The notes below the pieces were generated by a model. It did not search any database, was not told the origin of the DNA, and was given only the letters and a program-made list of their open reading frames with translations. Positions 30,595 to 53,150 of a stretch of DNA of 62,839 nt are shown piece after piece. The stretch covers positions 1 to 62,839 of the IMG/VR virus record IMGVR_UViG_3300044844_000500; one strand, 5' to 3'. Origin of the DNA: a virus. The stretch's first letter is position 1; each line of letters begins with the position of its first letter. The translations under genes were made by a program, and so were the position numbers.

Positions 30595-30825
30595 TTACCT
30601 GTAGCTTGCTGTTTTCTTGGCGATCGTTTTGGGCTGTTTTACAAACTGCTTGCCCTGTGCATTGCCCTTGGCCTTCGCCCGATTGGTGGCCGCCTTCTCC
30701 CCAGGCGACAACGACTTCCACGCCGCATCCGGAAGATACCGCTTCTTGCCCTTGCTGGGCTTGCCATCAGACGTGCGCCACTTCTGCGCAGTCCAATCCT
30801 TGAGCGACTGCTGCGGGGCCTTCAT
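30595..30825 (-). CDS. DUF5872-like basic protein, copy 1 (76 aa)
   Basis: MKAPQQSLKDWTAQKWRT begins it and QFVKQPKTIAKKTASYR ends it, with about 20 Lys/Arg. The protein at 48425-48658 is a clear paralog (same ends, same length), and both are followed by the same second gene. The family (DUF5872 as I recall) occurs in many phages and in some giant viruses; function unknown, though the charge suggests nucleic-acid or capsid binding. ATGA overlap with the gene upstream. Confidence 0.85.
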   Translation of the reverse strand: MKAPQQSLKDWTAQKWRTSDGKPSKGKKRYLPDAAWKSLSPGEKAATNRAKAKGNAQGKQFVKQPKTIAKKTASYR

Positions 30826-31004
30826 GACTTGTAGCCTCCGCCCTTCTTCTTATACTGCTGCGCCAAGAGCTGAGCTTTTCTCGCGGACCACTCGCCCGGG
30901 TCGCCACCTTTGGTCCCTGCCTTGATCTTCTGAAACAGCGCCTTGCGCATGCCCGGCTTGGTGTAGTTACCCGCTGCGTTTACTTTGGACTTGCTGGTTG
31001 CCAT
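30822..31004 (-). CDS. Small basic protein NYTKPGMRK...WSARKAQLLA family, copy 1 (60 aa)
   Basis: Reads AGNYTKPGMRKALFQKIKAG, then PGEWSARKAQLLAQQYKKK and GGGYKS. Half of the residues are Lys, Gly, Ala or Ser. It is a paralog of the 48655-48855 gene. The motif recurs in phages from marine and freshwater sources and in larger viruses, always uncharacterised. Its coupling to the DUF5872-like gene in both places shows that the pair functions or moves as a unit. Confidence 0.85.
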   Translation of the reverse strand: MATSKSKVNAAGNYTKPGMRKALFQKIKAGTKGGDPGEWSARKAQLLAQQYKKKGGGYKS

Positions 31005-40029: not shown

Positions 40030-40254
40030 TTAGGAGCACATCCCGCCTTTGCGATAGCCCTTGACCATCCCACCGCCCATGTAGCCCTTGACCTTTTTGC
40101 CCATGGCCATGCGCTTGTGCTGATTGATCGCGCCGCCCTTGGACATCATCACAGGACCCGTCTTTTTGCTGGTCTCAGAGACCATCTTGTTGGCTGGACC
40201 GCTCTCCACGGCACCACCGCCACGCGTCGCGCAACCCATTCCACGTCCGGCCAT
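40030..40254 (-). CDS. Small basic Gly/Met/Lys-rich protein (74 aa)
   Basis: Begins MAGRGMGCATRGGGAVESG, then NKMVSETSKKTGPVMMSKGG and ends MVKGYRKGGMCS. It is highly basic with repeated KGG and GGM units and is probably disordered. Several such proteins are encoded side by side (40030-40965). A DNA- or capsid-binding internal protein is possible. SKGGAI matches the recurring AxGG-type motif. Confidence 0.75.
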   Translation of the reverse strand: MAGRGMGCATRGGGAVESGPANKMVSETSKKTGPVMMSKGGAINQHKRMAMGKKVKGYMGGGMVKGYRKGGMCS

Positions 40255-40256
40255 GA

Positions 40257-40424
40257 TTATTTCCCCTTTTTCATTGCCCGACCGCGCGCGTCAGCGGTCT
40301 TGGTTTTCATGGCACGGCCCATCTTGTCCGCCATGCCGCCCTTTTTCATCTTGCCCACGCCATCGGCCGCGAAAGAAGGCACCATTTTGCCTCCTTTTTT
40401 GACCATCTTCATCTTGCCCATCAT
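40257..40424 (-). CDS. Small Lys/Met-rich basic protein (55 aa)
   Basis: The start at 40424 (MMGKMKMVKKGGKMVPSFAA) has an AAAGGCAGGG site upstream. The protein continues KMKKGGMADKMGRAMKTKTA and ends RAMKKGK. It is nearly all Lys, Met, Gly and Ala, like a histone tail or protamine. Function unknown; it ends 2 bases before the 74-aa gene. Confidence 0.7.
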   Translation of the reverse strand: MMGKMKMVKKGGKMVPSFAADGVGKMKKGGMADKMGRAMKTKTADARGRAMKKGK

Positions 40425-40428
40425 CGGA

Positions 40429-40674
40429 TTACCCTGCCTTTCGGATTTCGTCCAGTTTTGCTTCCAGACGGTTAAACCGTTGATCAACGTGGCTGACAAA
40501 ACGATCGATTCGCTCGTCAACCTCCTTACGCGTGACATGGTCGCGCGCCACTTCCTCGCGGGTTTTGTTGAGAAGGATGCCTAAACGCGCCAATTCATCC
40601 ACCTTACTCTTCAACAAAAACCCCATGACACCTACCACCGCAGTCAAAACCACGTTCCAGACCATCATTTCCAC
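40429..40674 (-). CDS. Small membrane protein with coiled coil (81 aa)
   Basis: Starts with GTG at 40674 after GGAGG. One transmembrane helix (VWNVVLTAVVGVMGFLLKS) is followed by a long charged coiled coil (RKEVDERIDRFVSHVDQRFN, RLEAKLDEIRKAG). The layout of anchor plus coiled coil is similar to some i-spanins or superinfection-exclusion proteins, but it is far from the lysis genes. Unknown. Confidence 0.7.
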   Translation of the reverse strand: MEMMVWNVVLTAVVGVMGFLLKSKVDELARLGILLNKTREEVARDHVTRKEVDERIDRFVSHVDQRFNRLEAKLDEIRKAG

Positions 40675-40677
40675 AGG

Positions 40678-40965
40678 TTAGCACCTCCATCGCCTGCGCG
40701 CCTGTCGAATTCGACTGTTTGGATCCTTGGCTGCCTCTGGAAACATCTTCATCTGGCCCGCCGATCGCGCGCAAAACGACGCCCGTCGTTTAGAACGAGC
40801 GGGCGACGGGTCCTTTTCAGTCACTGCCGTTTGCAGCTTGCTACCAGGGTTGGCACGCCGGTAAGCGGTCACCCCCTTTTTGGTCATGCCAGCACCTTGC
40901 TTGGTGGGTCGGAAATTGCCCGACTTCACCGAAGTTTTGATGCCCATGCCCTTTTTGGTAGCCAT
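40678..40965 (-). CDS. DUF6321-like basic protein (95 aa)
   Basis: The motif KKGVTAYRRANPGSKLQTAVT followed by RSKRRASFCARSAGQMKMF is a well-known pattern in phages and some giant viruses (DUF6321 as I recall). It is strongly basic (many Arg/Lys) and ends in RRRWRC. A capsid or DNA association is likely from charge and context, but no function is known to me. Confidence 0.75.
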   Translation of the reverse strand: MATKKGMGIKTSVKSGNFRPTKQGAGMTKKGVTAYRRANPGSKLQTAVTEKDPSPARSKRRASFCARSAGQMKMFPEAAKDPNSRIRQARRRWRC

Positions 40966-41267
40966 TACGCAGCAGCCCCGCCCTCAAAAAGCAGCGTCAC
41001 ACTGGTGATCTCGGCCGAGCTCAGGTCAATATAGATCCCGTTCTCAAATAAGATCCCCATGTCGGGGATGATGAGATCCTGCGAGCCAATTGCTGCGGGC
41101 GACGACAACGTCAACTTGGCCGTACCACCACTCGTGCTCCCGTCCTTGAGAGTAATCGTGGCAGAGGTAGCCGTGTGCGTGAAGTAGACCCCCAGCAAAC
41201 GCGTGCGGCCAGAGACCGCTGCCGCAGCAGCAGTCTTCCGTACCGACTGAATGTTGCTGAAGCTCAT
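40965..41267 (-). CDS. Small beta-sandwich structural protein (100 aa)
   Basis: An N-terminal arm (SFSNIQSVRKTAAAAAVSGR) leads into strands (RLLGVYFTHTATSATITLKD, AKLTLSSPAAIGSQDLIIPD, EITSVTLLFEGG). This pattern fits a capsid decoration or tail accessory subunit and is similar in layout to 27252-27584. The ATG is 12 bases past the end of the 236-aa gene. Confidence 0.7.
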   Translation of the reverse strand: MSFSNIQSVRKTAAAAAVSGRTRLLGVYFTHTATSATITLKDGSTSGGTAKLTLSSPAAIGSQDLIIPDMGILFENGIYIDLSSAEITSVTLLFEGGAAA

Positions 41268-41279
41268 GACGGCCTCCTA

Positions 41280-41990
41280 TTAACGGGTGGCCGCTGCGAA
41301 GATGTAGTCAACAGTGGTCGTCCGAGTCCCCGTGGCACTGCCCGACAGCGACATGGCGGCAAGCGCCAGCTCGGTCGTCGGAATGTTAGTGCTGTGATAA
41401 GCAACCTGGGTGCGGTCGATGTAGAAGAACACTTGGCCCGTGCCCACGACCCGAATGCCTAGCGTCACATACGTGTTGTCAACGAGGTCAATACCCGAGT
41501 CCGTGGAGGTTTCGGTGCCGCCCGACTCGGTCTTGCACAGGATCGATGCATTGCCGTCGTCGATCTGGAAGCAGATCCGATCGGCAGCGGTCAGCATGTT
41601 CTCGGGGTTGGTCGCAAAGTTTACCGTCAGGCCCACGCAAATGTCGGTCTGATCAGCGTCGTTGCACTTGATTTTGGTCTCAAACCAAAGCGACTTGTCC
41701 GCTTGCGCTTTGAAGATCTCATTGCCCTGCACCGACGCGCCGTCGTTGTCGGTCGTAGCGGCAGAGGTCAGCTCGAGAACACCGTTGACAATATCCGCGC
41801 CAATGCCGGCCGAGGCTCCAGAGTCTTTGACCACGGTCCAGTCATTGGTCGAATCCAGCGCAACAGCCGTGAAGTCGTCCATGTACGTGACGACGTCAGT
41901 GTCAACAGCGGTGGTGAGATCGGTGCCCCAGGCACCGGTTGCGCCTTTTCCAGAGTACTGGAGCGGGCCGGAGTAGTGGGTAGCAGCCAT
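41280..41990 (-). CDS. Jelly-roll structural protein, possible capsid decoration (236 aa)
   Basis: GAGGAAAG precedes the ATG at 41990. After MAATHYSGPLQYSGKG the sequence has a concanavalin/laminin-G-like series of strands (NDWTVVKDSGASAGIGADIV, KSLWFETKIKCNDADQTDIC, TYVTLGIRVVGTGQVFFYID). Proteins of this family occur directly downstream of the major capsid protein in other phages and are found in virions. It lies after the MCP terminator, so it may be made at a lower or different level. Confidence 0.75.
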   Translation of the reverse strand: MAATHYSGPLQYSGKGATGAWGTDLTTAVDTDVVTYMDDFTAVALDSTNDWTVVKDSGASAGIGADIVNGVLELTSAATTDNDGASVQGNEIFKAQADKSLWFETKIKCNDADQTDICVGLTVNFATNPENMLTAADRICFQIDDGNASILCKTESGGTETSTDSGIDLVDNTYVTLGIRVVGTGQVFFYIDRTQVAYHSTNIPTTELALAAMSLSGSATGTRTTTVDYIFAAATR

Positions 41991-42105
41991 AACTTTCCTC
42001 ACATGCGAGTGATAGTGCGCCTGTCTGCATGTCGTCAGCCGGGACTGTCAGACGCACCGAGAATGACCCCGGAATGCCCTCAATATACTCGATGTTGAGG
42101 GAAAG

Positions 42106-42130
42106 AAAAAGGGGGCCGAAGCCCCCTTTT
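42106..42130 (-). terminator. Strong bidirectional-looking terminator after the major capsid gene
   Basis: A perfect GGGGGC / GCCCCC stem (42111-42116 with 42121-42126) and a four-base loop (TTCG as read on the minus strand) is flanked by five A and four T, so it works in either direction. It lies 9-34 bases past the MCP stop and would raise the relative amount of the head-gene transcript. Confidence 0.9.
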
Positions 42131-42138
42131 CTAGGCCA

Positions 42139-43044
42139 TCAGGCCCCAGGCGATCCAAACAAGCCGCGCGGATCGCTAAAGCCGAAGCTGTAGCGCTCGC
42201 GAGCCTTGTAGCGGACGTTGCCAGTGTCGAAGTCGCCCTCGAAACCGGTCTTGATCGCCACGCGCGAGAACATCTTCATGCCGTTCGGCGCATCGGTCTT
42301 GATGAACCATGCGTCGGGGTCGGTCAGGAAGTGGTTCACAGTGTAGCCCTGCGGAACCATGCCCATGTTCCGAACCGCGTTGATGTCGTTGTCAGCCGTG
42401 CCAACACGAAGCGTGGACTTCATGATGCGGTCGGCAGTAAACATCAGCTCTTTCGGAATGATGAGCTTTAGGCCCTGAACAGCGATCTTCAGGCCACGCT
42501 CGTCCGTGAACGCGGCGATGTCGATCAGCGCCTGCTCAAGGGAGGTCTCAGACAGGTCAGCCGGAACGGTCAGCTCGTTCTTCAGGTCCGGGCCGCCCAG
42601 GGTCGGGTGATCCAGAGCACAAAGAGGCTTGCCGTCACCGCCGATCGAGGTGTCGAACGCGCCATTGAGCACGGCCGCCGCCTTGATCTGCTTGGTCTGC
42701 GACATCGAACGGGCCAGCGCCTTGGTGTAACGCGCAGACAGACGATCGTAGAGGTTGTCCTCCACGGCTTCTTCGGTCAGCGAGAACGCCAGCGCGATGG
42801 TCTCGTGCGTGTAGCGAGCGGTGTAGACTTCTTGCGCTTGGTCGTATGCAACGCCAGCACCTTCGGTCTTGACCGGAGCCTCGCCGAAGCCCGATTCCAT
42901 CACCTCTTCCTCGAACGCGCGGTCAGAGGTCTCGATTGCATAAATTTCGGTGTGTTCCTGCTCGTAGTTTTTGTACTCCAAGCCGAACAGAGCATTGAGA
43001 CCGGGCTCAAGCTCTTTCACCAGTTGTGCACGTGAAATTGCCAT
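42139..43044 (-). CDS. Major capsid protein (Mu gpT-like, HK97 fold expected)
   Basis: MAISRAQLVKELEPGLNALF is followed by EYKNYEQEHTEIYAIETSD, ARYTHETIALAFSLTEEAVE, LYDRLSARYTKALARSMSQT and near the end YKARERYSFGFSDPRGLFG. This corresponds to the Mu-like major head subunit (gpT) group, which takes the HK97 fold. At 301 aa it is of usual length. It is followed by a strong terminator and preceded by a decoration-like protein and scaffold, the typical head-gene order. Confidence 0.93.
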   Translation of the reverse strand: MAISRAQLVKELEPGLNALFGLEYKNYEQEHTEIYAIETSDRAFEEEVMESGFGEAPVKTEGAGVAYDQAQEVYTARYTHETIALAFSLTEEAVEDNLYDRLSARYTKALARSMSQTKQIKAAAVLNGAFDTSIGGDGKPLCALDHPTLGGPDLKNELTVPADLSETSLEQALIDIAAFTDERGLKIAVQGLKLIIPKELMFTADRIMKSTLRVGTADNDINAVRNMGMVPQGYTVNHFLTDPDAWFIKTDAPNGMKMFSRVAIKTGFEGDFDTGNVRYKARERYSFGFSDPRGLFGSPGA

Positions 43045-43046
43045 GA

Positions 43047-43628
43047 TTAAGCTCCTTGACCGGCAACACCAGCACTACCGTACAGGTGCTCGTTAATCTT
43101 CACCACAACCACAGCATTGGTGCCAAAAGTGTTGCCTGGAACATCCCACAGGCCAACAATCTTCAGGTTCAATGCGGCCGTTTTGTCAATGGTGGACGAA
43201 TCCAGTTCCATCGTCGAAACGCCCGTGGTCGTGCTACCGCCGGTACCCACAACGTCAGCGTTCATCCCCACTTGAGTCTGAGCAACCGACTCATCTACTT
43301 GGATGATGAACAACTGGTTGGGATCATCAATCACGTCGGCGATGATCTTGCCTTGCGTGATGTTGATCGAACCTGGATAAAAATTCTTCCAAGTCGGCTT
43401 GCCAGTGGTTGGGTCAATGTAATTGCAGCCGTTAAACACACCCACCGCAGCGGTATGGGTTGCAGGTGCAAACTTGACGAGGTAACCGTCATAAACGGTG
43501 ACCAAGTCGCCTTGGTAAATCGCCCCGGACTGGTTATCGGCAATCTCGTATCCGTACTGCTTTTGGCCGCCAGTGGCGGACAGATTGCCGAGGGCACGCA
43601 GACCAAAGGGCTTGTCAACATTAGCCAT
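43047..43628 (-). CDS. Head decoration-like protein (193 aa)
   Basis: The start NVDKPFGLRALGNLSATGGQ and then YQGDLVTVYDGYLVKFAPAT, VGVFNGCNYIDPTTGKPTWK and FIIQVDESVAQTQVGMNADV place it with the small capsid-associated proteins encoded next to gpT-like MCPs in many phages. It is probably a capsid cement or vertex protein. It ends 2 bases before the MCP start. Confidence 0.8.
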   Translation of the reverse strand: MANVDKPFGLRALGNLSATGGQKQYGYEIADNQSGAIYQGDLVTVYDGYLVKFAPATHTAAVGVFNGCNYIDPTTGKPTWKNFYPGSINITQGKIIADVIDDPNQLFIIQVDESVAQTQVGMNADVVGTGGSTTTGVSTMELDSSTIDKTAALNLKIVGLWDVPGNTFGTNAVVVVKINEHLYGSAGVAGQGA

Positions 43629-43649
43629 TTGATGGTTCCTTCAAAGGGG

Positions 43650-44144
43650 TTACTGGTCTTTCGACCCGCCAAATGAGACTCGAGATCTGCGGGTTGGGCG
43701 TTCGATGACCATGCTCGAATGCGCATTGGCCTTCATCAGCTCATTGTCCGCAGCTTGAAGCTGATCTCCCGCTCGTTGTTGGTAGTACGCGTTTCGTTCC
43801 TGAACTGTCTCTTCGGGGATACGGGCCAGAAGAAGGGCACCGACGCTAATCACGCCAGCATGCCGACCATCTTCAGGACTGGATGAGTGAAAGTCAGGGT
43901 ATTCATCGGCACGTACCAGTTCGTAGCCTTCGCGAAGACGGCCTGCGACGTTGGTACGGTCTTGAATGCCTGCTGATTCAGCTCGAATCCAGCGGTGTTT
44001 GTATCCGGGAGGCGGCTCAGGTGCATCAAGCCGCGAAGGTGCCTGCCACGGACGACGTCGCGTAATCTTCGCGCGAAGCTCTGCGTCTCGCGAAGTACGG
44101 TTAAGAGCTGGAGCAGCTCCTACTACAGGTTTAACGTCACTCAT
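43650..44144 (-). CDS. Capsid-assembly-associated protein (164 aa)
   Basis: AAGGAG precedes the ATG at 44144. The conserved-looking part is RPWQAPSRLDAPEPPPGYKH, RWIRAESAGIQDRTNVAGRL and REGYELVRADEYPDF, followed by a charged helix (ERNAYYQQRAGDQLQAADNE) and a basic tail (RPTRRSRVSF). It is found between scaffold and MCP in related phages. Function in assembly is inferred. Confidence 0.75.
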   Translation of the reverse strand: MSDVKPVVGAAPALNRTSRDAELRAKITRRRPWQAPSRLDAPEPPPGYKHRWIRAESAGIQDRTNVAGRLREGYELVRADEYPDFHSSSPEDGRHAGVISVGALLLARIPEETVQERNAYYQQRAGDQLQAADNELMKANAHSSMVIERPTRRSRVSFGGSKDQ

Positions 44145-44146
44145 GA

Positions 44147-45076
44147 TCACTCCTTCACGTACTTGGCGTATTCCTCAAGCGGAACACCCAGTTTTTTGGC
44201 AATGGCCACCTGACTTGGAGTCAGACGTACCGTGCGGCGTGCAGCTTGGTTGATCCCGGAAGACCGGGAAGCGGGTGCGACCGGCTGCACGTTACGCGCC
44301 GCCCCGTTTTGCGCACCGGAAAACTTCTTTGGAAAAGCGTCCCGGATACGTCGATCCAATTCATGATAGTACTCGTCAGAGCTGGCGTCAAACCCCTCCG
44401 CCTCAATTAGCTGACGGTGTATGCCCCACGCAGCATGTGTCATGGCCGTATCGCGCCCATACCACGGGTTGCGCTCCGCCCAATCCTCTACCTTTGGATC
44501 GACCTGACGTTGCTGCTGTGCAGGCTGTTGATATGCCACCTGCTGCGCGGCTTGCTGCTGTTGCGCTACAAGATTCTGCTCATAGGCTTGGCGCTGCGCA
44601 TTTTGCGCCTGGACAGAGGCCTGCTCCATTGTCAGCGAAGTCAGGCGCTGTTGTGCCTCTGTTTCCGTGTCAACGTCGCCTTCTTCGCGCGCTTTGCGAA
44701 TGATCTGCTTAAGCGCCATGACCTGCGTTTCAATACGGCCCGTAGCCTCGGCCACGCGCTGCTGATCCGTGTTCAGGTACTGGTATTCAAGCTGCTGGGC
44801 CCGCGCCTGTACGTTTCGTGCGTAATCAAGTGCCGCCTGCTCGCGTCGCTGCGTCTCCCGCAGCCGCGCCGTCAGTTTGTCGATCCGTTTTTTGACGTTT
44901 TCGCTGTATTGATCCAGCTCGCCTCGGTCACCGTGATCACTTTGATCGCCGCTGGGGGCAACAACCTCCGGGGGCTGTGGCTTGTCAATGACTTCTGCCT
45001 GCCCGTCCTCACTAAGCCTGACGGTGGCGGGTGCTTCGTCCTCTCCAATCTTAAACTCCAACTGCTCACCACTCAT
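44147..45076 (-). CDS. Scaffolding protein (309 aa)
   Basis: Acidic N-terminus, then a long coiled coil (SENVKKRIDKLTARLRETQR, YARNVQARAQQLEYQYLNTD), a Gln-rich middle (VAQQQQAAQQVAYQQPAQQQ) and a C-terminal part with NPWYGRDTAMTHAAWGIH, DEYYHELDRRIRDAFPKKF and LTPSQVAIAKKLGVPLEEYA. This is the pattern of phage scaffolds that leave or are degraded before packaging, and the position between portal and MCP supports it. Confidence 0.87.
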   Translation of the reverse strand: MSGEQLEFKIGEDEAPATVRLSEDGQAEVIDKPQPPEVVAPSGDQSDHGDRGELDQYSENVKKRIDKLTARLRETQRREQAALDYARNVQARAQQLEYQYLNTDQQRVAEATGRIETQVMALKQIIRKAREEGDVDTETEAQQRLTSLTMEQASVQAQNAQRQAYEQNLVAQQQQAAQQVAYQQPAQQQRQVDPKVEDWAERNPWYGRDTAMTHAAWGIHRQLIEAEGFDASSDEYYHELDRRIRDAFPKKFSGAQNGAARNVQPVAPASRSSGINQAARRTVRLTPSQVAIAKKLGVPLEEYAKYVKE

Positions 45077-45087
45077 GATGCTCTCCT

Positions 45088-45555
45088 TTACATGTGCAGA
45101 ATGTTTTCTGGATCACTGACCACGCCCAAAACCTCGTCGTCATTGATCAAACGGATCTCCCCACCATCGATGGGAATGCGTGCGCCTGCATATCGGCCGA
45201 AAATGATCCAGTCCCCCTCCTTGCACCACGCGCCGGTGGGAAATTTGGACTCATCGTTGTACGCCAGACTGCCAACCTTCAATACGTAGCCGCAAACGGT
45301 CGCAAGATTGGATTTGCGCTGAGTCTCCTCGGCCAAAACAATTCCGCCCTTGCTTTTTTCCGCGCCACGATAAGGAAGAATCGCGATCCGCCAACCTGTA
45401 GGCGTTGGGATACGATCCAGTACAGTCTCATGAAGCTTTGACGGGTCAAAGCCGTCCTCGGTATACGAGTCCTCAAGCCTTGGTCCCTTGTTCTCAGCCT
45501 CTTCGCGCCACTTGCGCTCCAATGCCGTCAAGCTTTCGTCTGCTACAGCTTCCAT
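45088..45555 (-). CDS. GroES-like co-chaperonin (155 aa)
   Basis: Ribosome site AGGAG before the second ATG (45555) decides the start. From about residue 45 the chaperonin-10 fold can be read: RIPTPTGWRIAILPYRGAEK, then SKGGIVLAEETQRKSNL, ATVCGYVLKVG, GDWIIFGRYAGARIPID and EIRLINDDEVLGVV. This equals a GroES domain with an N-terminal extension; the mobile-loop region is SKGGIVLAEETQRKSN, in the expected place. Like T4 gp31 it could team with host GroEL to fold the capsid protein. It lies between portal and scaffold. Confidence 0.88.
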   Translation of the reverse strand: MEAVADESLTALERKWREEAENKGPRLEDSYTEDGFDPSKLHETVLDRIPTPTGWRIAILPYRGAEKSKGGIVLAEETQRKSNLATVCGYVLKVGSLAYNDESKFPTGAWCKEGDWIIFGRYAGARIPIDGGEIRLINDDEVLGVVSDPENILHM

Positions 45556-45564
45556 CTGCATCTC

Positions 45565-45762
45565 CTAGTCAAGAAGGTCTTCGTCCGAATGCTTTTTCAA
45601 AAGCCCTTTCACGGATTCTTCGACCATCCTCAACCCTTCGAGCCGTCCCATCATGAAGCGATAGCGCTCCATGTCGGCAATCGTGCCGTTTAGCACGATC
45701 TGCTCTGACTGATGCTGTAGCTTTCTGACTTCTTTCAGAACTGCTTCTGCAAATTCGAGCAT
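45565..45762 (-). CDS. Small conserved helical protein (65 aa)
   Basis: MLEFAEAVLKEVRKLQHQSE, ADMERYRFMMGRLEGLRMVE and GLLKKHSDEDLLD form two amphipathic helices. The GRLEGLR...LLKKH pattern is common in phages between portal and capsid genes. It is followed by the GroES-like gene after 9 bases, whose ribosome site overlaps the stop (CTAGGAG). Confidence 0.75.
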   Translation of the reverse strand: MLEFAEAVLKEVRKLQHQSEQIVLNGTIADMERYRFMMGRLEGLRMVEESVKGLLKKHSDEDLLD

Positions 45763-45778
45763 GGTGATTCCATGAAAG

Positions 45779-45801
45779 CAGTCGGTTTACCACACCGACT
45801 G
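45779..45801 (-). other. Stable hairpin between the portal-side gene and the GroES cluster
   Basis: CAGTCGGT and ACCGACTG pair over 8 bp with a 7-base loop, just upstream of the 65-aa gene. Only a short CTTTC follows, so it is a weak or attenuating terminator, or an mRNA processing/stability site separating portal from scaffold expression. Confidence 0.55.
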
Positions 45802-45819
45802 AAAGCGGTCTTACAGAGC

Positions 45820-46092
45820 CTAGTATATGCGAACCGGGCGATTGCCGTCCTTCTTTTTGACAATCTGCACAGCCTTCTGCACTCCTTTGGGCGTCGAAAT
45901 CATCGTTCCGCCCTTGGCCATCTTGCGCGCCTTGCCCGCCTTCTCGTATGCAATAGCCGCCGCCTGCTTGGTGGCCGCTTTTACGCTCTTGGGCTTGCTC
46001 GTACCAAGCTTGCCCGACTCCTTGTACGATCGGACCATCTCACCAATGTTGGAACTAATGGTCTTTTGACTTGAACCACGTTTAAGCGGCAT
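45820..46092 (-). CDS. Small basic protein, MPLKxGSSQKTIS family (90 aa)
   Basis: AAGGAG precedes the ATG at 46092. MPLKRGSSQKTISSNIGEMV is a well-known N-terminus of small phage proteins that usually continue with KPQKQAVAIALxKARK; here it is SKPKSVKAATKQAAAIAYEK followed by ARKMAKGGTMIS and a basic end. The family (related to DUF6496, as I recall) has no known function. It overlaps the portal stop by 11 bases and carries the recurring MAKGG motif. Confidence 0.8.
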   Translation of the reverse strand: MPLKRGSSQKTISSNIGEMVRSYKESGKLGTSKPKSVKAATKQAAAIAYEKAGKARKMAKGGTMISTPKGVQKAVQIVKKKDGNRPVRIY

Positions 46093-48409
46093 TTCTAGCT
46101 CCTTGAGATTGCATGGTCTTGACTTCCTGCAAGCGCAGGCGTTGCTGGTTGAGCTGATTGTTCTGCTGAAGCTTTTGTTGGTCAAGTCCCAAGCGCTGTT
46201 GCTCCATCTGAATGCGTTGTTGATCGGCCTGCGCACGCTGTTGAATCTCCATGCGTTTCAGTTCGATCAACGGATCCTCTCCACCCTCGCCAGAAAGCTT
46301 GCCTTGCAGGTCTTTCATCTCCTGCATGTACGTCGCAACCTTGATGGCGACCATGCCTTCCTTCTGGATTGGCGAAACCATGCGGTCAGGATCAGTGCCA
46401 TACGTCTTGAAGAGGTCTGCTTCCACATCCTCCTCCGCTTTCAGCCGGATGTGCTCCAAAATATGCTTTTGCAACTCCATTGCCGACATCGGATTGGACT
46501 GCAAGAGCGGTGACATGCCCATCATCAGGTGTGCGGCGATGTGTGCATCATGTTGCTGGCCTGCAAACGCCTTCAACTTCATGCCGTTCAGTACATCGCT
46601 GTTCTCGGCCGCCGGATCACGGGGCATATTCGTGTTTTGGGGCATCAAAATGCCGTCGATATCCCGAATGTTGAGCGCCGCGTACATCCGATAGTACGCC
46701 TCGTACATGTTGTGCATGTTCGGCGCGCTCTGGGCAAGCTGCAACTGCATCTGAGCAAGCTGAATACGCTGCGCAGTGCTGAAAATGTTGGGATCGGCCA
46801 CCGGCTGGACCGAAACCATGCGACTGAAGTCCGCCTTTTTGATTCGGCGGCTTGCTCCAGGCACATCGTAGGGGTATTCGTCCGGCAAATAGTACGCAAA
46901 GCCCTCAAAAAGCAGTCTGAACTCGAGCGTTTGCGCATAATGAAGCCGTTTGTGGATGCTCGACATCACCATCGAGCCCCGTTCCAGGAGCGCAAGCGTC
47001 GTTCCGACCTGCGCGTACTGGTTTCCATCCCCCACTTGCATGTCCGCTGTGCTCGAAAGCCGCTTTCCAGCGTCCACCAAGAAGCCCAACAGCGCAAAAA
47101 GCACTTGACTGGGCTCTTTGTAGGGCAGCGGCATGAGCGACGCGCTCAATTCCGCCCCACCCGCATCAATATCGCGCCATTCCCCAGGCTGGATCGGGTC
47201 CGAATCGTCCGCGATCCGCGCGCCTTTGGCCTTGAACCCCGCCGGCAGGTTCGCCAGCGTGCCCGCATCGATCAATTGGCGCAGCGCACTGGTCGCTGCC
47301 TTGGACAAACCACCAATCAAGTGCACAAAACCAAGGCCATAGGCCCCCGGACCCTCAACCAAGACGTAGTGAACGAAGTAGTTCCGACGATTTTTTTGCT
47401 CGTCGTTCTCTTTCCAGTTCCTCCGAATGCCTATAACCTGCAACGAATCCTCGGCCAAGGTCACCACATAGGGCAACTTCACCCCAGTTGGGTTGCCATC
47501 TTCGTCCTTGTCCTCAAAACCAGGGATGTCTAGGTCAACCAACTGCTCAAGCAAGAACACTTCGCCCACGTCATCGGTCGGCTGCACGCCCACAACCTTG
47601 TCCGTTGCCGCTTGGATGGGGCTCGGATCGGCTGGCGCGGCCGACGTTTCCACCGGGATGTCCAAGTACTCACCCGCAAGCACCCGCTTTTTGTACTCGT
47701 TCGAATCCATCGCGATGCGATGCGTCAGTCGCGGGCACTGGGACACGACACTTGAGCCGTTATACGGGATGTACACGTCATCGGCCAAGCAAAGCTTGGA
47801 CACCATGCGCTTTAGCTGATGGTCGTAGTAGACCTTCTTGAACGTCGAGCCGCCGTAGCCGGTGTAAAAGAGGAGCTGGTCGAACTCGGGCGTGTACTCT
47901 TCCATCACGGTCGTGATTTGGTAGTTCATAAAGTCCTGCACGCGACCTGCCTGCTGGTACTTCTCGACCGTTTCTTTGCCCATGATTTGCGTGCGCACAG
48001 GGCCACCCGCCGGCAGGAGCTCTTTCAAAGCCTGCGCCTGGAACTGGATGATCGCTTCCATCAGCATGGGATGAGCGACGCCCGCCGCGCCCCGGAAGGG
48101 CTTCGTGCGCTCTTCCATCCGCAAGCCCAAAAGATCAAGGCCCTTGGCGAACATGTTTTCCCAGTCGGACCGCGAACCCTTGTCCGCTTCGAACATCGCC
48201 GATACGTCGATCGAGATCTTGGCCAAAGCCTCCGGCTCGATCACACCCGCGAGGTTGGCGTAGAAGTCAACCTCCTCAGCTTCGTCGCTTCCGATTTCGA
48301 TTGTCGCGCCGCCGTCTTCGTCGATCTCGATTTCAATGTCAACTGGCTCGTCTTCGAGCGCGATGATCCCGAGTGACGGGGCAGGATTTACAGACTTGTC
48401 GATAGGCAT
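46082..48409 (-). CDS. Portal protein (775 aa)
   Basis: After an acidic N-terminus (VDIEIEIDEDGGATIEIGSD), residues 80-300 contain MFAKGLDLLGLRMEERTKPF, GVAHPMLMEAIIQFQAQALK, QIMGKETVEKYQQAGRVQDF and MEEYTPEFDQLLFYTGYGGS, typical of large podovirus-like portals. The C-terminal region is a very long Gln-rich helix (RAQADQQRIQMEQQRLGLDQ) that probably forms a barrel inside the capsid. It is preceded by DUF5872-like genes and followed by small head genes. Confidence 0.92.
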   Translation of the reverse strand: MPIDKSVNPAPSLGIIALEDEPVDIEIEIDEDGGATIEIGSDEAEEVDFYANLAGVIEPEALAKISIDVSAMFEADKGSRSDWENMFAKGLDLLGLRMEERTKPFRGAAGVAHPMLMEAIIQFQAQALKELLPAGGPVRTQIMGKETVEKYQQAGRVQDFMNYQITTVMEEYTPEFDQLLFYTGYGGSTFKKVYYDHQLKRMVSKLCLADDVYIPYNGSSVVSQCPRLTHRIAMDSNEYKKRVLAGEYLDIPVETSAAPADPSPIQAATDKVVGVQPTDDVGEVFLLEQLVDLDIPGFEDKDEDGNPTGVKLPYVVTLAEDSLQVIGIRRNWKENDEQKNRRNYFVHYVLVEGPGAYGLGFVHLIGGLSKAATSALRQLIDAGTLANLPAGFKAKGARIADDSDPIQPGEWRDIDAGGAELSASLMPLPYKEPSQVLFALLGFLVDAGKRLSSTADMQVGDGNQYAQVGTTLALLERGSMVMSSIHKRLHYAQTLEFRLLFEGFAYYLPDEYPYDVPGASRRIKKADFSRMVSVQPVADPNIFSTAQRIQLAQMQLQLAQSAPNMHNMYEAYYRMYAALNIRDIDGILMPQNTNMPRDPAAENSDVLNGMKLKAFAGQQHDAHIAAHLMMGMSPLLQSNPMSAMELQKHILEHIRLKAEEDVEADLFKTYGTDPDRMVSPIQKEGMVAIKVATYMQEMKDLQGKLSGEGGEDPLIELKRMEIQQRAQADQQRIQMEQQRLGLDQQKLQQNNQLNQQRLRLQEVKTMQSQGARNAA

Positions 48410-48424
48410 GATGTGTCCTTGGCG

Positions 48425-48658
48425 TTATCTAAAACGCGCGGTCTTCTTGGCAATGGCCTTGGGCTGTTTGACGAACTGCTTGCCAGCGGCCTTGCCTGCC
48501 CGCTTGGCTCTTGTGGTCGCTGCGTATTCTTGCGGGGACAAGGACTTGATGGCGGCCTCCGGCAGATAGCGCTCGCCGGTCTTAGAGGATGGCTTACCGC
48601 TCTTGGTCCGCCATTTTTGGGCGGTCCAATTTTTCAGGCTTTGCTGCGGCGCTTTCAA
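48425..48658 (-). CDS. DUF5872-like basic protein, copy 2 (77 aa)
   Basis: Nearly the same protein as at 30595-30825: MKAPQQSLKNWTAQKWRTKS, ERYLPEAAIKSLSPQEYAAT and KQFVKQPKAIAKKTARFR. The copies differ at about a third of positions, so the duplication is not recent or the copies came from different sources. It overlaps its partner gene by 4 bases as in copy 1. Confidence 0.87.
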   Translation of the reverse strand: MKAPQQSLKNWTAQKWRTKSGKPSSKTGERYLPEAAIKSLSPQEYAATTRAKRAGKAAGKQFVKQPKAIAKKTARFR

Positions 48659-48855
48659 TCTTTATACCCTCCGCCCTTGGCCTTGTACTGCTTCGCCAAG
48701 AGCTGGGCTTTTCTCGCGGACCACTGGCCTGCGGCCGTACCTTGCGTTGCCGAGGCCTTGATCCTGCTGAACAAAGCTTTCCGCATGCCGGGCTTCGTGT
48801 AGTTGCCTGCTTGGTTCACGCGGCTCTTACTTGCTTTGGTGCTCTTGGTTGCCAT
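48655..48855 (-). CDS. Small basic protein NYTKPGMRK...WSARKAQLLA family, copy 2 (66 aa)
   Basis: I start it at the ATG at 48855 by alignment with copy 1; a GTG at 48873 overlapping the 1426-aa stop (GTGA) would add six residues. It reads NQAGNYTKPGMRKALFSRIK, GQWSARKAQLLAKQYKAKGG and GYKD. It directly follows the 1426-aa gene and precedes the portal. Confidence 0.82.
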   Translation of the reverse strand: MATKSTKASKSRVNQAGNYTKPGMRKALFSRIKASATQGTAAGQWSARKAQLLAKQYKAKGGGYKD

Positions 48856-48869
48856 GGCTGTGCCTTCGC

Positions 48870-51800
48870 TCACGCGGCCTTCAGTTTAGCAAGCTGGCCC
48901 TTGGCCGTCGAGGTGTCTACAAGACCCCCTTGAGCGTAGCCTCTTTGAAGTTGATCTCCAAGCTTTGACATCCACGTGTCCAAGATGTCTTGTGGCATCT
49001 CGTTTTCAACCGCCATCTGCCTCAATTCATCCAAAGAGTAAAGGCCTGGAGGAATGGTCTTAGAGAACCCTGGCAGGCGCTGGCCTTCGGTCACACTGAC
49101 CAGTCCAGCGTTTTGAAGATCACCGATCGATTCCCAATTGCCGCTTCTTACGAAGTCCTGCACGAAAGGCAAGTACTTTTCCTTGGGCGCGGCATTGCTC
49201 TTTCCCTTGATCTGAGTGATCTGGCTGAGATCGTTTTTTCCCTCCATAAGCTCAACCACTCGCTCTGCAAAAGCTTGGCCACGGAGCCCTTCTGCCCGCG
49301 CCTGTTTTGCTGCTTGATCCTGAGAAATACCTGGAGTAGAACCGACCTCGATCGTCACGTGGGGTTCGCCTTTCTCATCAACCAAAGAGTAGACTTTTGC
49401 TCGTCCGCTTTTGATGGCTTCCCAGCCGCCATGGCCGTAACTGGGATTACCAAACCTTTCGGACGCCTCTATCCAGTCGGGATGTCCTTTTGGAGGCTCG
49501 TACCCTCGAACAGAGTGCCCCATGGCCTCAGACTCGGCGACAAAGGACCCTGGACGATTGAGCTCAATCCAACGGAATTTTTCTGGGTATTCTTTGTAAA
49601 CCGGAAGCCCCTCCCTGGCTGACGCGCGAGCTGCGTTTGCTTTTGCAATCAGCTCCTGGTCGTATTCAAATGTCCTGCGAACTGCTTGGTCCATTGACAC
49701 CTTGTTCAACTGTTCGGGACGAATGCGCCCGCTGGCAAGGTCTTCCCGAAGAACATCGACCACGTGGTCAAACCCGAAGTTCCTCATAAGACCTCTGGCG
49801 GTGTAGACCTGGGTCTCGTCTGGCAGCTTGTAAATCCAAGGGTTCTGAATTGCCAAAAGCTCATCATCCCCCTCGTTAAACGACTTGTCGTTTTTGTAAA
49901 ACGACGCAGGCCTGGGATCAATCATGCGGTCCGTCAAATCTTCCCATGCTTGGCCTTGAGCGGTCTGCGACACAGGTGCTGGAGGCATGCCGGCCGTCGT
50001 GCGCTTTTGCGCAAGAGACATTCCTGGGGTCAGTTGTAAATTTTTGGCAACAATCCCTTGTTCCGCGAGCAGTCGAACGGGATCGTCCACCGTGCCCATT
50101 TCTTTTTTGACATAGTTCGTCAGGTTTCGGTCGATCCACTGGTTTAAGGCAACATTCTTCGGCTCGTCCTCAAGCCTTCTGATTGCATTGTCCACCTGCC
50201 ATTGGGAGGCATAGGGCCTTGGACCGGGCTTGTTTGAGATTCCCGCAATATCTTCCAACAGGGATTTTTCTTCCGCTGTCATTTCGTCGCTTTTGAATGC
50301 GGCCAATTGCTCTTCGACAGGGCCTTTGAGCCAGTTCCCTCCCTTGGGCTTGATGACATACGACGCTCCTGCGGGGCCCAAGGCACGGTTGTACTGCTGG
50401 AAGTCCTCGGCCAACATTCGCGCTGCCTCGCCCGCTTTCTCCGCGCCACGGGCCGCTGCACGCACCGGTGCCGCCGGGTTGACAAGGCTGCTTCCGATGT
50501 CGGCGGCTGAGTACAGGGCGCGCTGCGTGGGGTCCGTAGGCGGCTCAGGCCGCACGCCAAGGTCCGTCATTTTTTGCTTGATCCACTCACTGCCCATGAC
50601 CGGGCGCTCTGAGCCCAGCCCAGCCGGCGTCAAGAGCATGTTCGCCAAGTCAACCGGCGCACCGACGAGGTTGTACGGCATGTTCGCCACGCCCTGCGCA
50701 ACTGCGCGACTCAATGCTTCGTTTTCTTCTTGAGTCGCGCGTCGGCGCGTGCGCTGCTGCAAAGGTTTGCCGGACCGGAACGGATCGTCGTATTGCGGCC
50801 GTGCTTCTTTCTCACTTTCTTCGGAGGACTTTTTTACCTCACCGCCTTCCTCAAACCGGCGCTTGGTCAGGGAGCCTTTGGTAAGTGAAGGTTTTTCCAA
50901 GGTCGGGGCGTTGAACGTGTCACGAGACAGGCCACGGGCCATGTTCTCCGCCTCTCGCGCCTTTAGCTTGTACGTTCGTGCAAGCTCCATGAAGTCGTCT
51001 TTGGCCGTGTTCTTGAGTGCCTTGGGCGATGTGCCTTTGCTCGTGGTCAACGACTCGACTTCCATCGCCATGCCCTTACCAAAGCCCTCACTGCTCTTGG
51101 CTTCCAACGGCCGCTTCGTGATCTTTTTGACCGTCTTTGTAGACGGCGTTTCACTGTAGCGCGTCTCACTCATGCCCGGCATTTCCTGGAGCATGTTGCG
51201 CGACTCGCTGTAGTACTCCGGATCGTCCCCGTACAGGTTGTATTCGTTCACGCGCTGCAACAAGGCGTCCGTGCTCACGTCCCCGCCGCGCGCAAATGCG
51301 AACACCGGGCGCGGCATCATCGGCGAACGAATCATGTTGCCCAGCCGGTCCGTCATGTAGCCCATGTTGCGCTGACCACCCAGCGGCTGCGGAGCGAGTG
51401 ACGGGTTCTGCTGCAAAAGGTCCACGGCCGTCGGGCCTTGGTAAGTCATAACTGGGATGTAGGGCCGCGTGCCCGGCATACCCCGAGCAACAGGCTTTGG
51501 GGGAACAGGCGTAGGCGCGGGTGCTGGCGCGGGCGGCAAAATGGGTGAAGGAACCGTCGGCTGGCGCGGCGTCTCCTGGCCCGGGAGCCGTGGCCCAACA
51601 AAATCTGGCGGCAACGGTGGATAGTCCGTCCCAGGGCCTGATAGCGGTGGCGTCGAGGGCTTCCATCCCTTGGACACGGCCAACGCATCGGCCGACGTGA
51701 TTCGCCCGTCCCCATTGGTGTCGTACTGCAAATCCGGCGTGATCTTTTTGACCGCCATCTGCAAAACCCGCTCCGCCAATGCCTGATTAGGATTAGCCCC

Positions 51801-53150
51801 TTTAGGTGGCTGTGCTACAGGCGGCTGTGACTGCTTTGGCGGCAGCGGCGGTCCTACGAAATCCGAGGGCGGGGACTGGTTTGGTTGGGGCAAGAAAATC
51901 GGTGCGCCCATGTTCGGCGACGAGTTAACCGGCGGGGTATTGGTCGTCGGGCTCGGAAGCGGTTGATTACTTACCGGGCTGTTGTCCCACCACTGGCCAC
52001 CGGAGTAAAACTTCTGACCGTCTGGAGATTTAATCGGGGCATACTCGCTTTCGCGACCGCCCACGCCCGAAATTGGCTTAATAAGTGCGGGCCCTCCACG
52101 AACGATCAGATCCTCCCTACGAGAGTCTGGCGCTGGCTGGGTAGCCGCTGGGGGTGCAACGGTGGGGGCTTGACGCGTGGGTTGTGACGGCGTTGTCGCT
52201 CCACGGATCAAGGACCCAAAGTTAAAGGTCGGCACCGGAGAGACGCCCGTGGGAATCGGCGATCCGCTTAGCCCCTTTTGCCCAGCCGCGCCTACGCCCG
52301 GCGTCTCGACCAACGGCGATACGGGGGATCGGGGGGTTGTTGATGTTGCTGCTGCGGCCGATGGCGGTGTTGCTGACGCAGGTGTTGCCGCTGCCGATGT
52401 TGCCGCCGGTGGTGGCAGATTTGAGGCCGCGATGACAGCCGCCACCTGATTGGAGATTGGCCTTAACACAGAAGCAAAATACTCCGGCAACCCCGTCTTC
52501 GGATTGATCGTCCCCGCCCCGCCCATGCCCTTGAGCATGTCCCGCGCCGAAGGACTTAAATACGCCAGCTTCGTGTCCCCGTTGCGCCCGGCTTTCGCCA
52601 CACGCCTCAACATATCCTTTGCCTTCACCTCGCCTCCCTTCGCCATAAAGGCACTGGCCACGGACAACGAGCCCAGGTTGTATTTGCTCGGATCACTGAC
52701 CACGTCAATCGCAAGCCCTCGCTGTGCAGCCGCTTCCTGCGCCCGCCGGGCCGCCGCCTTCTGAAACTCCACCACCGCCTGCGGGTCAAACGACACCTCC
52801 GGCTTGGCAACCGTGAACGGCGCTAACTCCGGCGCGGCCGGCCCAGCATAGTCCTCGGTCCGTGGCCCTTCATTCCAGGCGTTGATCGACTTTTCGTATT
52901 CCCCATACGCTTTTTCGTAAGGGGTATACACGTCCCGGTTGTACGCCTCTACCGCCCGATCGTACGCCGCCAACCTTTCAAGATCCGCCTGCTTCCCCTC
53001 CAAATACTCCCGGTCCGCCTTGGACAAGAAAGGCTGCTGGCTCGGGTTCGCTATCCCCCCGAACGCAAACCGCTGAACAGGCATCTCACTGTTCAGGTCG
53101 TTAGGCACCGATACATTTTCAGCGCCCTGGAAAGGCAGGTAATTAGGCAT
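48870..53150 (-). CDS. Giant multidomain protein between TerL and portal, with EF-hand-like loop and PcfJ-like region (1426 aa)
   Basis: In order: a start with FAFGGIANPS (about 28), a helical segment, MAKGGEVKAKDML and NGDTKLAYLSPS then GTINPKTGLPEYF (about 168-225), a long Pro-rich linker, DTNGDGRITSADAL (about 476-490, EF-hand/dockerin-like), a second Pro-rich linker, FARGGDVSTDALL (about 618), FEEGGEVKKS, a hydrophobic Gly/Ala part, and a C-terminal domain with MGHSVRGYE (about 1210), VYSLVDEKGEPHVTIEV and ITQIKGKSNAAPKEKYLPFV, which resembles PcfJ-like proteins; it ends with YAQGGLVDTS. It may be an injected polyvalent protein or very large head accessory. The class is inferred; the coding frame is certain. 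Confidence 0.75.
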   Translation of the reverse strand: MPNYLPFQGAENVSVPNDLNSEMPVQRFAFGGIANPSQQPFLSKADREYLEGKQADLERLAAYDRAVEAYNRDVYTPYEKAYGEYEKSINAWNEGPRTEDYAGPAAPELAPFTVAKPEVSFDPQAVVEFQKAAARRAQEAAAQRGLAIDVVSDPSKYNLGSLSVASAFMAKGGEVKAKDMLRRVAKAGRNGDTKLAYLSPSARDMLKGMGGAGTINPKTGLPEYFASVLRPISNQVAAVIAASNLPPPAATSAAATPASATPPSAAAATSTTPRSPVSPLVETPGVGAAGQKGLSGSPIPTGVSPVPTFNFGSLIRGATTPSQPTRQAPTVAPPAATQPAPDSRREDLIVRGGPALIKPISGVGGRESEYAPIKSPDGQKFYSGGQWWDNSPVSNQPLPSPTTNTPPVNSSPNMGAPIFLPQPNQSPPSDFVGPPLPPKQSQPPVAQPPKGANPNQALAERVLQMAVKKITPDLQYDTNGDGRITSADALAVSKGWKPSTPPLSGPGTDYPPLPPDFVGPRLPGQETPRQPTVPSPILPPAPAPAPTPVPPKPVARGMPGTRPYIPVMTYQGPTAVDLLQQNPSLAPQPLGGQRNMGYMTDRLGNMIRSPMMPRPVFAFARGGDVSTDALLQRVNEYNLYGDDPEYYSESRNMLQEMPGMSETRYSETPSTKTVKKITKRPLEAKSSEGFGKGMAMEVESLTTSKGTSPKALKNTAKDDFMELARTYKLKAREAENMARGLSRDTFNAPTLEKPSLTKGSLTKRRFEEGGEVKKSSEESEKEARPQYDDPFRSGKPLQQRTRRRATQEENEALSRAVAQGVANMPYNLVGAPVDLANMLLTPAGLGSERPVMGSEWIKQKMTDLGVRPEPPTDPTQRALYSAADIGSSLVNPAAPVRAAARGAEKAGEAARMLAEDFQQYNRALGPAGASYVIKPKGGNWLKGPVEEQLAAFKSDEMTAEEKSLLEDIAGISNKPGPRPYASQWQVDNAIRRLEDEPKNVALNQWIDRNLTNYVKKEMGTVDDPVRLLAEQGIVAKNLQLTPGMSLAQKRTTAGMPPAPVSQTAQGQAWEDLTDRMIDPRPASFYKNDKSFNEGDDELLAIQNPWIYKLPDETQVYTARGLMRNFGFDHVVDVLREDLASGRIRPEQLNKVSMDQAVRRTFEYDQELIAKANAARASAREGLPVYKEYPEKFRWIELNRPGSFVAESEAMGHSVRGYEPPKGHPDWIEASERFGNPSYGHGGWEAIKSGRAKVYSLVDEKGEPHVTIEVGSTPGISQDQAAKQARAEGLRGQAFAERVVELMEGKNDLSQITQIKGKSNAAPKEKYLPFVQDFVRSGNWESIGDLQNAGLVSVTEGQRLPGFSKTIPPGLYSLDELRQMAVENEMPQDILDTWMSKLGDQLQRGYAQGGLVDTSTAKGQLAKLKAA

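Follow-up and report, generated by a model that had tools for sequence, protein, structure and literature searches.

A short Ala-x-Gly-Gly motif that recurs in several virion-linked proteins of a single virus may bear on the way in which large injected phage proteins are divided. What is such a motif doing five times in one protein, and again in others from the same genome? The window, i.e. the whole stretch of DNA analysed, is a virus contig of 62,839 nt (IMG/VR record IMGVR_UViG_3300044844_000500, positions 1 to 62,839), with ORFs for a family A DNA polymerase, a UvrD-like helicase, a primase-like protein, TerL and portal-like, major-head-protein-like and GroES-like proteins. Its TerL is 78% identical to that of phage DSL-LC04, and 56-61% identical to those of phage 023Pt_psg01 and the Pelagibacter phages HTVC027P and HTVC023P. 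Phages of the HTVC023P type are classed as Podoviridae in a published abstract, and the annotation of DSL-LC04 includes Pam1-type adaptors, from which we infer that the group is podovirus-like. No long-tail genes were recognised in the window phage, and no major tail tube protein among the window ORFs scanned.

An initial annotation of the window had named ten sites of this type, and all of them were located in the ORFs to which they had been assigned. It knew of no published explanation, which agrees with our literature searches for the motif itself; the modules that surround it, the hook of tape measure proteins (TMPs) and the polyvalent domains, are known.

Recurrence and form of the motif

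The motif has the form [F/M/Y]-A-[K/E/D]-G-G-[E/I/P/L]-[V/A]. Searched for as [FYMLR]AxGGx[VILMA], it gives seven matches in three long window proteins against 0.31 in shuffled sequences, with none of 400 shuffles reaching seven, while the window's 34 non-virion ORFs yield no match. The annotated pattern had been fitted to the window, that is post hoc, and independent genomes therefore weigh more. The count against shuffled sequences in related genomes, a check that the annotation itself had proposed, did not give the random level that would have spoken against it: phage DSL-LC04 has eight matches against 0.94 (0 of 200 shuffles), and in 46 non-redundant relatives of the 1426-aa protein [FYM]AxGGx[hydrophobic] is matched 103 times against 1.5 expected, a count that is inflated by homologous copies and was therefore collapsed to 74 distinct combinations of left and right flanks. 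Control spacings in the same 46 relatives were unenriched for F.GG (16 against 12.1) and [FYM]A..GG (1 against 4.0); the highest, F...GG, reached 3.5-fold, and the other shifted spacings were around or below expectation. Plain A.GG is not enriched in the virion ORFs of the window (19 against 17.4), and because of this the hydrophobic residue before the Ala and the Val or Ala after the Gly pair must belong to the signal.

Ala occupies position +1 in 51 of the 74 flank combinations; Lys, Glu or Asp predominate at +2 and Glu, Pro, Ile or Leu at +5, and +6 is Val in 46 and Ala in 25; at +6, as at the aromatic position, the residue set was built into the search pattern and only the relative weights are informative. 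Lys or Arg stands immediately before the aromatic in 24 of the 74 (32% against a background of 12%). The Gly codons are mixed at both positions, with all four in use and near background frequencies at the first Gly, and the selection is thus on the protein level. GGT is slightly over-represented at the second Gly, as is TTT at Phe, and many third positions differ between copies.

Among the 1822 ORFs of the loci gathered, which are biased to virion genes, 127 carry the motif. Four of these are singletons, and the rest make up three families: a cluster of the 1426-aa and 697-aa proteins, joined by a common module, the 844-aa family and the 90-aa family. The 1213-aa and 1059-aa proteins of the virion region of the window are without a full-motif match, and Gly-rich fibre proteins were excluded by counting isolated GG pairs only. 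Two look-alikes were rejected as members, namely FRQGG at the C-terminus of pelagiphage TerL, where the window TerL reads FRQGN, and the GHSVGGY matches in relatives, which belong to the PcfJ domain. In the marine relatives L031, L033 and L035 (HTVC027P, 023Pt_psg01) several proteins whose genes are similarly placed carry xADGGR(V/I)G(Y/F)xxG(G), a variant that may be the lineage-specific form of the motif.

Modules joined at the motif

Five copies lie in the 1426-aa protein, with the following features:

48870-53150, minus strand: polyvalent-type protein of 1426 aa in the interval between TerL and portal, hypervariable in size among relatives with conserved TerL
53049-53069, minus strand: FAFGGIA, residues 28-34, opening an N-terminal block
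52626-52646, minus strand: MAKGGEV, residues 169-175, opening the GDT module
52470-52646, minus strand: GDT module, residues ~169-227, MAKGGEV..GDTKLAYLSP..LKGMGGAGTINPKTGLPEYF, common to the 697-aa protein (tblastn of window and loci)
51276-51296, minus strand: FARGGDV, residues 619-625, in low-confidence coil of the AF2 model
50835-50855, minus strand: FEEGGEV, residues 766-772, the seam preceding the swapped C-terminal cassettes (DUF6973 or LPD23 after the same seam in relatives)
48945-49772, minus strand: PcfJ-like effector domain, residues ~1127-1402 (AF2 pLDDT 70-90 over most of it)
48918-48938, minus strand: YAQGGLV, residues 1405-1411, opening the C-terminal tail that is retained on cassette swap

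In 80 loci with a related TerL, the gene between TerL and portal has several motifs and encodes between 739 and 1852 aa, in some loci divided over two ORFs, and proteins of these sizes adjoin TerLs that are 81-95% identical. The N-terminal part and a C-terminal tail of the form xxGGxV(D/R)TSTAKGQLAKLKAA are retained, and the domain between them is swapped. Edges of homology lie no more than 15 aa from a motif in 18.5% of cases, 2.3 times the 7.9% obtained when positions are shifted circularly (10.4% at most); the same test on other GG sites gives no excess (18.2% against 16.2%). Flank clusters, 44 on the left and 46 on the right, join at the motif to give the 74 combinations, and one left block pairs there with ten right blocks. 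DUF6973 (Pfam) begins 15-19 residues past the first Gly of sites of the type RFxxGGE(V/A)KK in most relatives having the domain, and LPD23 (Pfam), which was found in four relatives, about 70-80 residues past the first Gly of the seam motif. In the window copy itself the only such domain is the PcfJ-like one, seen by fold as well as by sequence, and the Foldseek matches of its domain (E 3e-23) are PcfJ-like phage proteins.

The 1426-aa protein is thus of the polyvalent type in the sense of Iyer et al. (2017, PMC5512222), with its seams marked by the motif. It is, like the proteins described there, a large multidomain protein beside virion genes: unrelated domains are combined in one large chain with swapped architectures (LPD23, PcfJ-like, DUF6973 and transglycosylase domains in relatives), known associated domains are present, and the gene is found among virion genes, between TerL and portal in the window and in relatives. 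In contrast to them it has no recognised metallopeptidase domain; a self-processing peptidase is common, not universal, in polyvalent proteins, and the window ORFs gave neither a match to one nor any HExxH. The repeated seam motif is also a difference, as we did not find it described in the passages of PMC5512222 that were searched.

The initial annotation had placed the motif always in linkers at domain borders. For the long proteins this agrees with the AF2 models, where the tested copies are in low-confidence coil, three of them outside the confident PcfJ-like domain. As a general rule it goes too far, since one copy is the fixed start of a conserved 55-aa module, and the models of both long proteins are poor overall (mean pLDDT 40 and 49) and were used only to tell whether a site is inside or outside a confident domain. 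A PDB fold search with a model of the fragment 560-1426 gave nothing significant, and sequence searches for solved structures of the 697-aa and 1426-aa proteins gave none of value. For the model of the fragment that contains the PcfJ-like domain (window 48945-49772), Foldseek matches GNAT acetyltransferases weakly and below significance (ESCO1, NatD; E 0.2-1), possibly a hint to the PcfJ fold.

Immediately before the main swap seam there is a conserved block, T(F/L)GAPTLExPTLTKGSLTKKRF (window 50847-50933, with equivalents in L024-L109), which meets ten different downstream blocks and matches no known family. In locus L080 (2395-6948) the polyvalent gene is broken by one in-frame stop, 8 codons past RFAEGGPV, with an ATG about ten codons further downstream, and this split is either a genuine two-gene form or a nonsense change.

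Tape measure proteins and possible processing

The second long carrier resembles tape measure proteins:

25051-27144, minus strand: TMP-like internal virion protein of 697 aa, with a C-terminus that matches PHROG tape measure families
26686-26706, minus strand: MAQGGLA, residues 147-153, with A148, G150 and G151 invariant in 17 homologues
26545-26706, minus strand: GDT module, residues ~147-200, duplicated in some homologues
25258-25278, minus strand: RARGGEM, residues 623-629, with the layout of the T5 pb2 cleavage site
25096-25299, minus strand: TMP hook module, residues ~616-683, GPGTGTSDSIPAMLSDGEFVFTAKAV
25054-25077, minus strand: LEGGAVKA, residues 690-697, at the C-terminus

Its homologue in DSL-LC04 is annotated as a tail tape measure protein, and the protein itself, with a length of 697 aa, has, like TMPs, the hook module near the C-terminus. 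The 55-aa GDT module has the form AxGG...GDTMLAHITPEEAxxLKRxGGSGTINPxTGLPEF, and where it is duplicated in homologues its motif is duplicated with it. The same module (GDTxLAxxxP..GGxGTINPxTGLPEF) is also found on plasmids of intracellular bacteria, CP113869, AP017967 (Candidatus Megaera) and NZ_CP133271 (Candidatus Bealeia).

RARGGEM stands before GPGTGTSDSIPAMLSDGEFV, the part that matches the PHROG tape measure families, and the hook module does so with E down to 2e-11. It occurs in 713 phage records, and among the annotated matches listed nearly all are TMPs. A profile of it matches two TMPs in the PDB, chains 8zdo and 8rk3, in both of which the module is absent from the resolved parts; AF2 predicts it in the 697-aa protein as a hairpin plus two helices, at low confidence. 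In eight proteins from unrelated phages (of Vibrio, Arthrobacter, Streptomyces, Pseudomonas, Erythrobacter, Prochlorococcus, Mycobacterium and Gordonia) xAxGGx(V/I) or a close variant precedes the hook, and in most a second one follows it, to which LEGGAVKA would be the counterpart. This layout recurs in lambda gpH, FATGG..HRGEFVFTKEA..RGYATGGYV, with FATGG and YATGG flanking GEFVFTKEA.

Processing of the TMP is known for lambda and T5, and we know of no general TMP-processing signal. An exact cleavage site for lambda gpH was not found in the literature searched, and the TP901-1 TMP paper contains no cleavage data. In T5 the cut in pb2 lies after R1127, localised by proteomics and by LC-ESI-TOF-MS intact mass (Linares et al., PMC10038345). 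The translation reads NSFVPR↓AEGGMM (arrow, cut), which is the sole AxGG within the last 1000 residues, and by our own estimate, made post hoc, the chance that a bond picked at random from the last 219 residues of pb2 lies equally near an AxGG is about 2%. Relatives of T5 at 41-68% identity (distant Demerecviridae) have PRAEGG, PRANGG, PRAAGG or GRASGG at the site, and one Gly is lost in Aeromonas Akh-2, where the sequence is broken, and in Vibrio D51. QRARGGEM in the window has a layout identical to PR↓AEGGMM. The suggestion of the initial annotation that the motifs are maturation cleavage sites thus gains support from T5, with R↓AxGG kept to about 41% identity, while its placing of the cut at the Gly pair does not, as T5 cuts before AxGG and not after it.

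The likeness of the window protein to T5 pb2 and lambda gpH consists in an AxGG at or beside the hook. It differs from these TMPs in that it ends about 10 residues past the hook, that it belongs to a phage without recognised long-tail genes, that the motif is also found in a non-TMP protein and that the case here is known from sequence alone. In phage JBD30 the hook (PDB 8rk3) is proposed to hold the TMP in the baseplate (PMC11445458); it is the FASGGHIKGPGTGTSDSIP module, residues 1018-1066, predicted like that of the window as a hairpin plus two helices. The authors there speculate on a cut at R1066, from a generic cleavage predictor, and do not take up AxGG in the section consulted.

The most rational explanation, to which we would give a probability of roughly 45%, is that the motif is an exposed processing and hinge site at module seams. 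Its recurrence, its selection as protein, its place at module seams, the mixing of modules across them and the coincidence with the mapped T5 site are shown here. [F/M/Y/R]-A-x-G-G-x-[V/A] is a short unstructured seam, at the protein level, between separable modules of phage proteins that are expected to traverse the portal or tail during infection, placed in the hook region of TMPs in long-tailed phages, and in the TMP-like internal protein and the polyvalent effector protein in the podovirus-like group. The chain would be cut there, or kept flexible and cuttable, in virion assembly or ejection, and the anchor, pore and effector parts would thereby be free to separate. As a single explanation processing does best, for it spans both TMPs and polyvalent proteins and has one mapped precedent, the T5 site, which was matched post hoc and suggests the link to cleavage. 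Cutting would then take place in this phage group too, presumably by one mechanism for all copies and by a protease that is host-encoded or yet to be recognised. Some observations speak against it: cleavage at the copies in the C-terminal tail would free only 15-20 residues, which looks pointless, T5 has Arg at P1 where most copies have Phe, Met or Tyr, no peptidase was recognised among the window ORFs scanned, and the guess for JBD30 is another site. More tentatively, [F/Y/M/R]AxGGx[V/A] could be a phage-wide processing signal, shared by TMPs of long-tailed phages and injected polyvalent proteins of short-tailed ones, that separates anchor, pore and effector, with swapped cassettes inserted between the sites. 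If the motif is a processing signal, the sequences of many phages would reveal where their proteins are processed, the borders of effector cassettes could be set automatically, and T5 and lambda would allow a genetic search for the protease.

The tight constraint on F, A, G, G and V/A suggests recognition by something, and the motif could be a docking or packaging tag through which its carriers attach to one shared partner (portal, adaptor, hub or prohead interior) and are loaded into the virion, with several copies acting multivalently. Its carriers are confined almost entirely to the virion region and, with few exceptions, to three families, and the tails that bear it are retained under cassette swapping. 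There is a precedent in P1 DarB (PMC9024508), likewise a large protein that enters the host along with phage DNA, whose short signal for localisation to the capsid carries a reporter into the head; that signal is N-terminal and single (within residues 1-30), has no GG motif reported, and there is no Dar consensus. We find a tag less probable than processing, as was also the outcome for the tags into the prohead that the initial annotation had suggested. Four standalone PcfJ-type ORFs are all without the motif, and all 25 fused versions have an upstream copy, a contrast that is suggestive only, for the lineages are related, the standalone versions are shorter, and that of L080 comes after the single in-frame stop. 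Moreover, a tag would not be needed at every seam, the 1213-aa and 1059-aa virion-region proteins do without the full motif, and the T5 data indicate cleavage at it. An inherited Gly-Gly joint, spread as modules duplicate and recombine and giving flexibility for threading with no partner at all, would fit the predicted coil around the copies, the modules that duplicate with their motif attached and the obvious mosaic exchange. Flexibility cannot, however, account for the conservation of F/M/Y, A and V/A over 74 flank contexts with varied codons, and the motif is also present in TMPs of unrelated phages, which makes a passive joint unlikely. Two further readings were rejected. Sites of the form xAxGG↓x resemble known GG-processing consensus sites, as if a cysteine protease specific for GG, of C39, adenovirus-protease or ULP type, cut immediately behind the second Gly, but no such enzyme was recognised in the ORFs scanned and the sole mapped cut precedes AxGG, and we regard this as highly improbable. 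The clustering of breakpoints at the motif, with the slight GGT and TTT excess, could point to a translated DNA-level recombination site, but this is largely refuted by the codon diversity and is the least credible of all.

Minor carriers and neighbouring genes

The remaining copies are found in three other proteins:

20529-20549, minus strand: MARGGFV, residues 173-179 of the 844-aa virion-region protein (18531-21065, minus strand)
45901-45921, minus strand: MAKGGTM, in a 90-aa ORF (45820-46092), a weak member
40126-40143, minus strand: SKGGAI, in a 74-aa basic ORF (40030-40254), a weak member

In the 844-aa family the site is conserved as MAxGGxVQRF(Q/E)EG. The 74-aa and 90-aa proteins are short, basic and Lys-rich, have little beyond KGG in common with the other carriers and are probably of another class. 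The former, rich in Met, Lys and Gly, has several GG repeats (MMSKGGAI, YMGGGMVKGYRKGG) and no family match, and is 76% identical to its counterpart in DSL-LC04 (L030 1318-1542). Adjoining the portal gene there is a pair of genes for 77 aa and 72 aa (window 48425-48873), a diverged copy of which, with 76 aa and 60 aa, lies near the endolysin gene (30595-31004); the 72-aa member matches phrog_17747.
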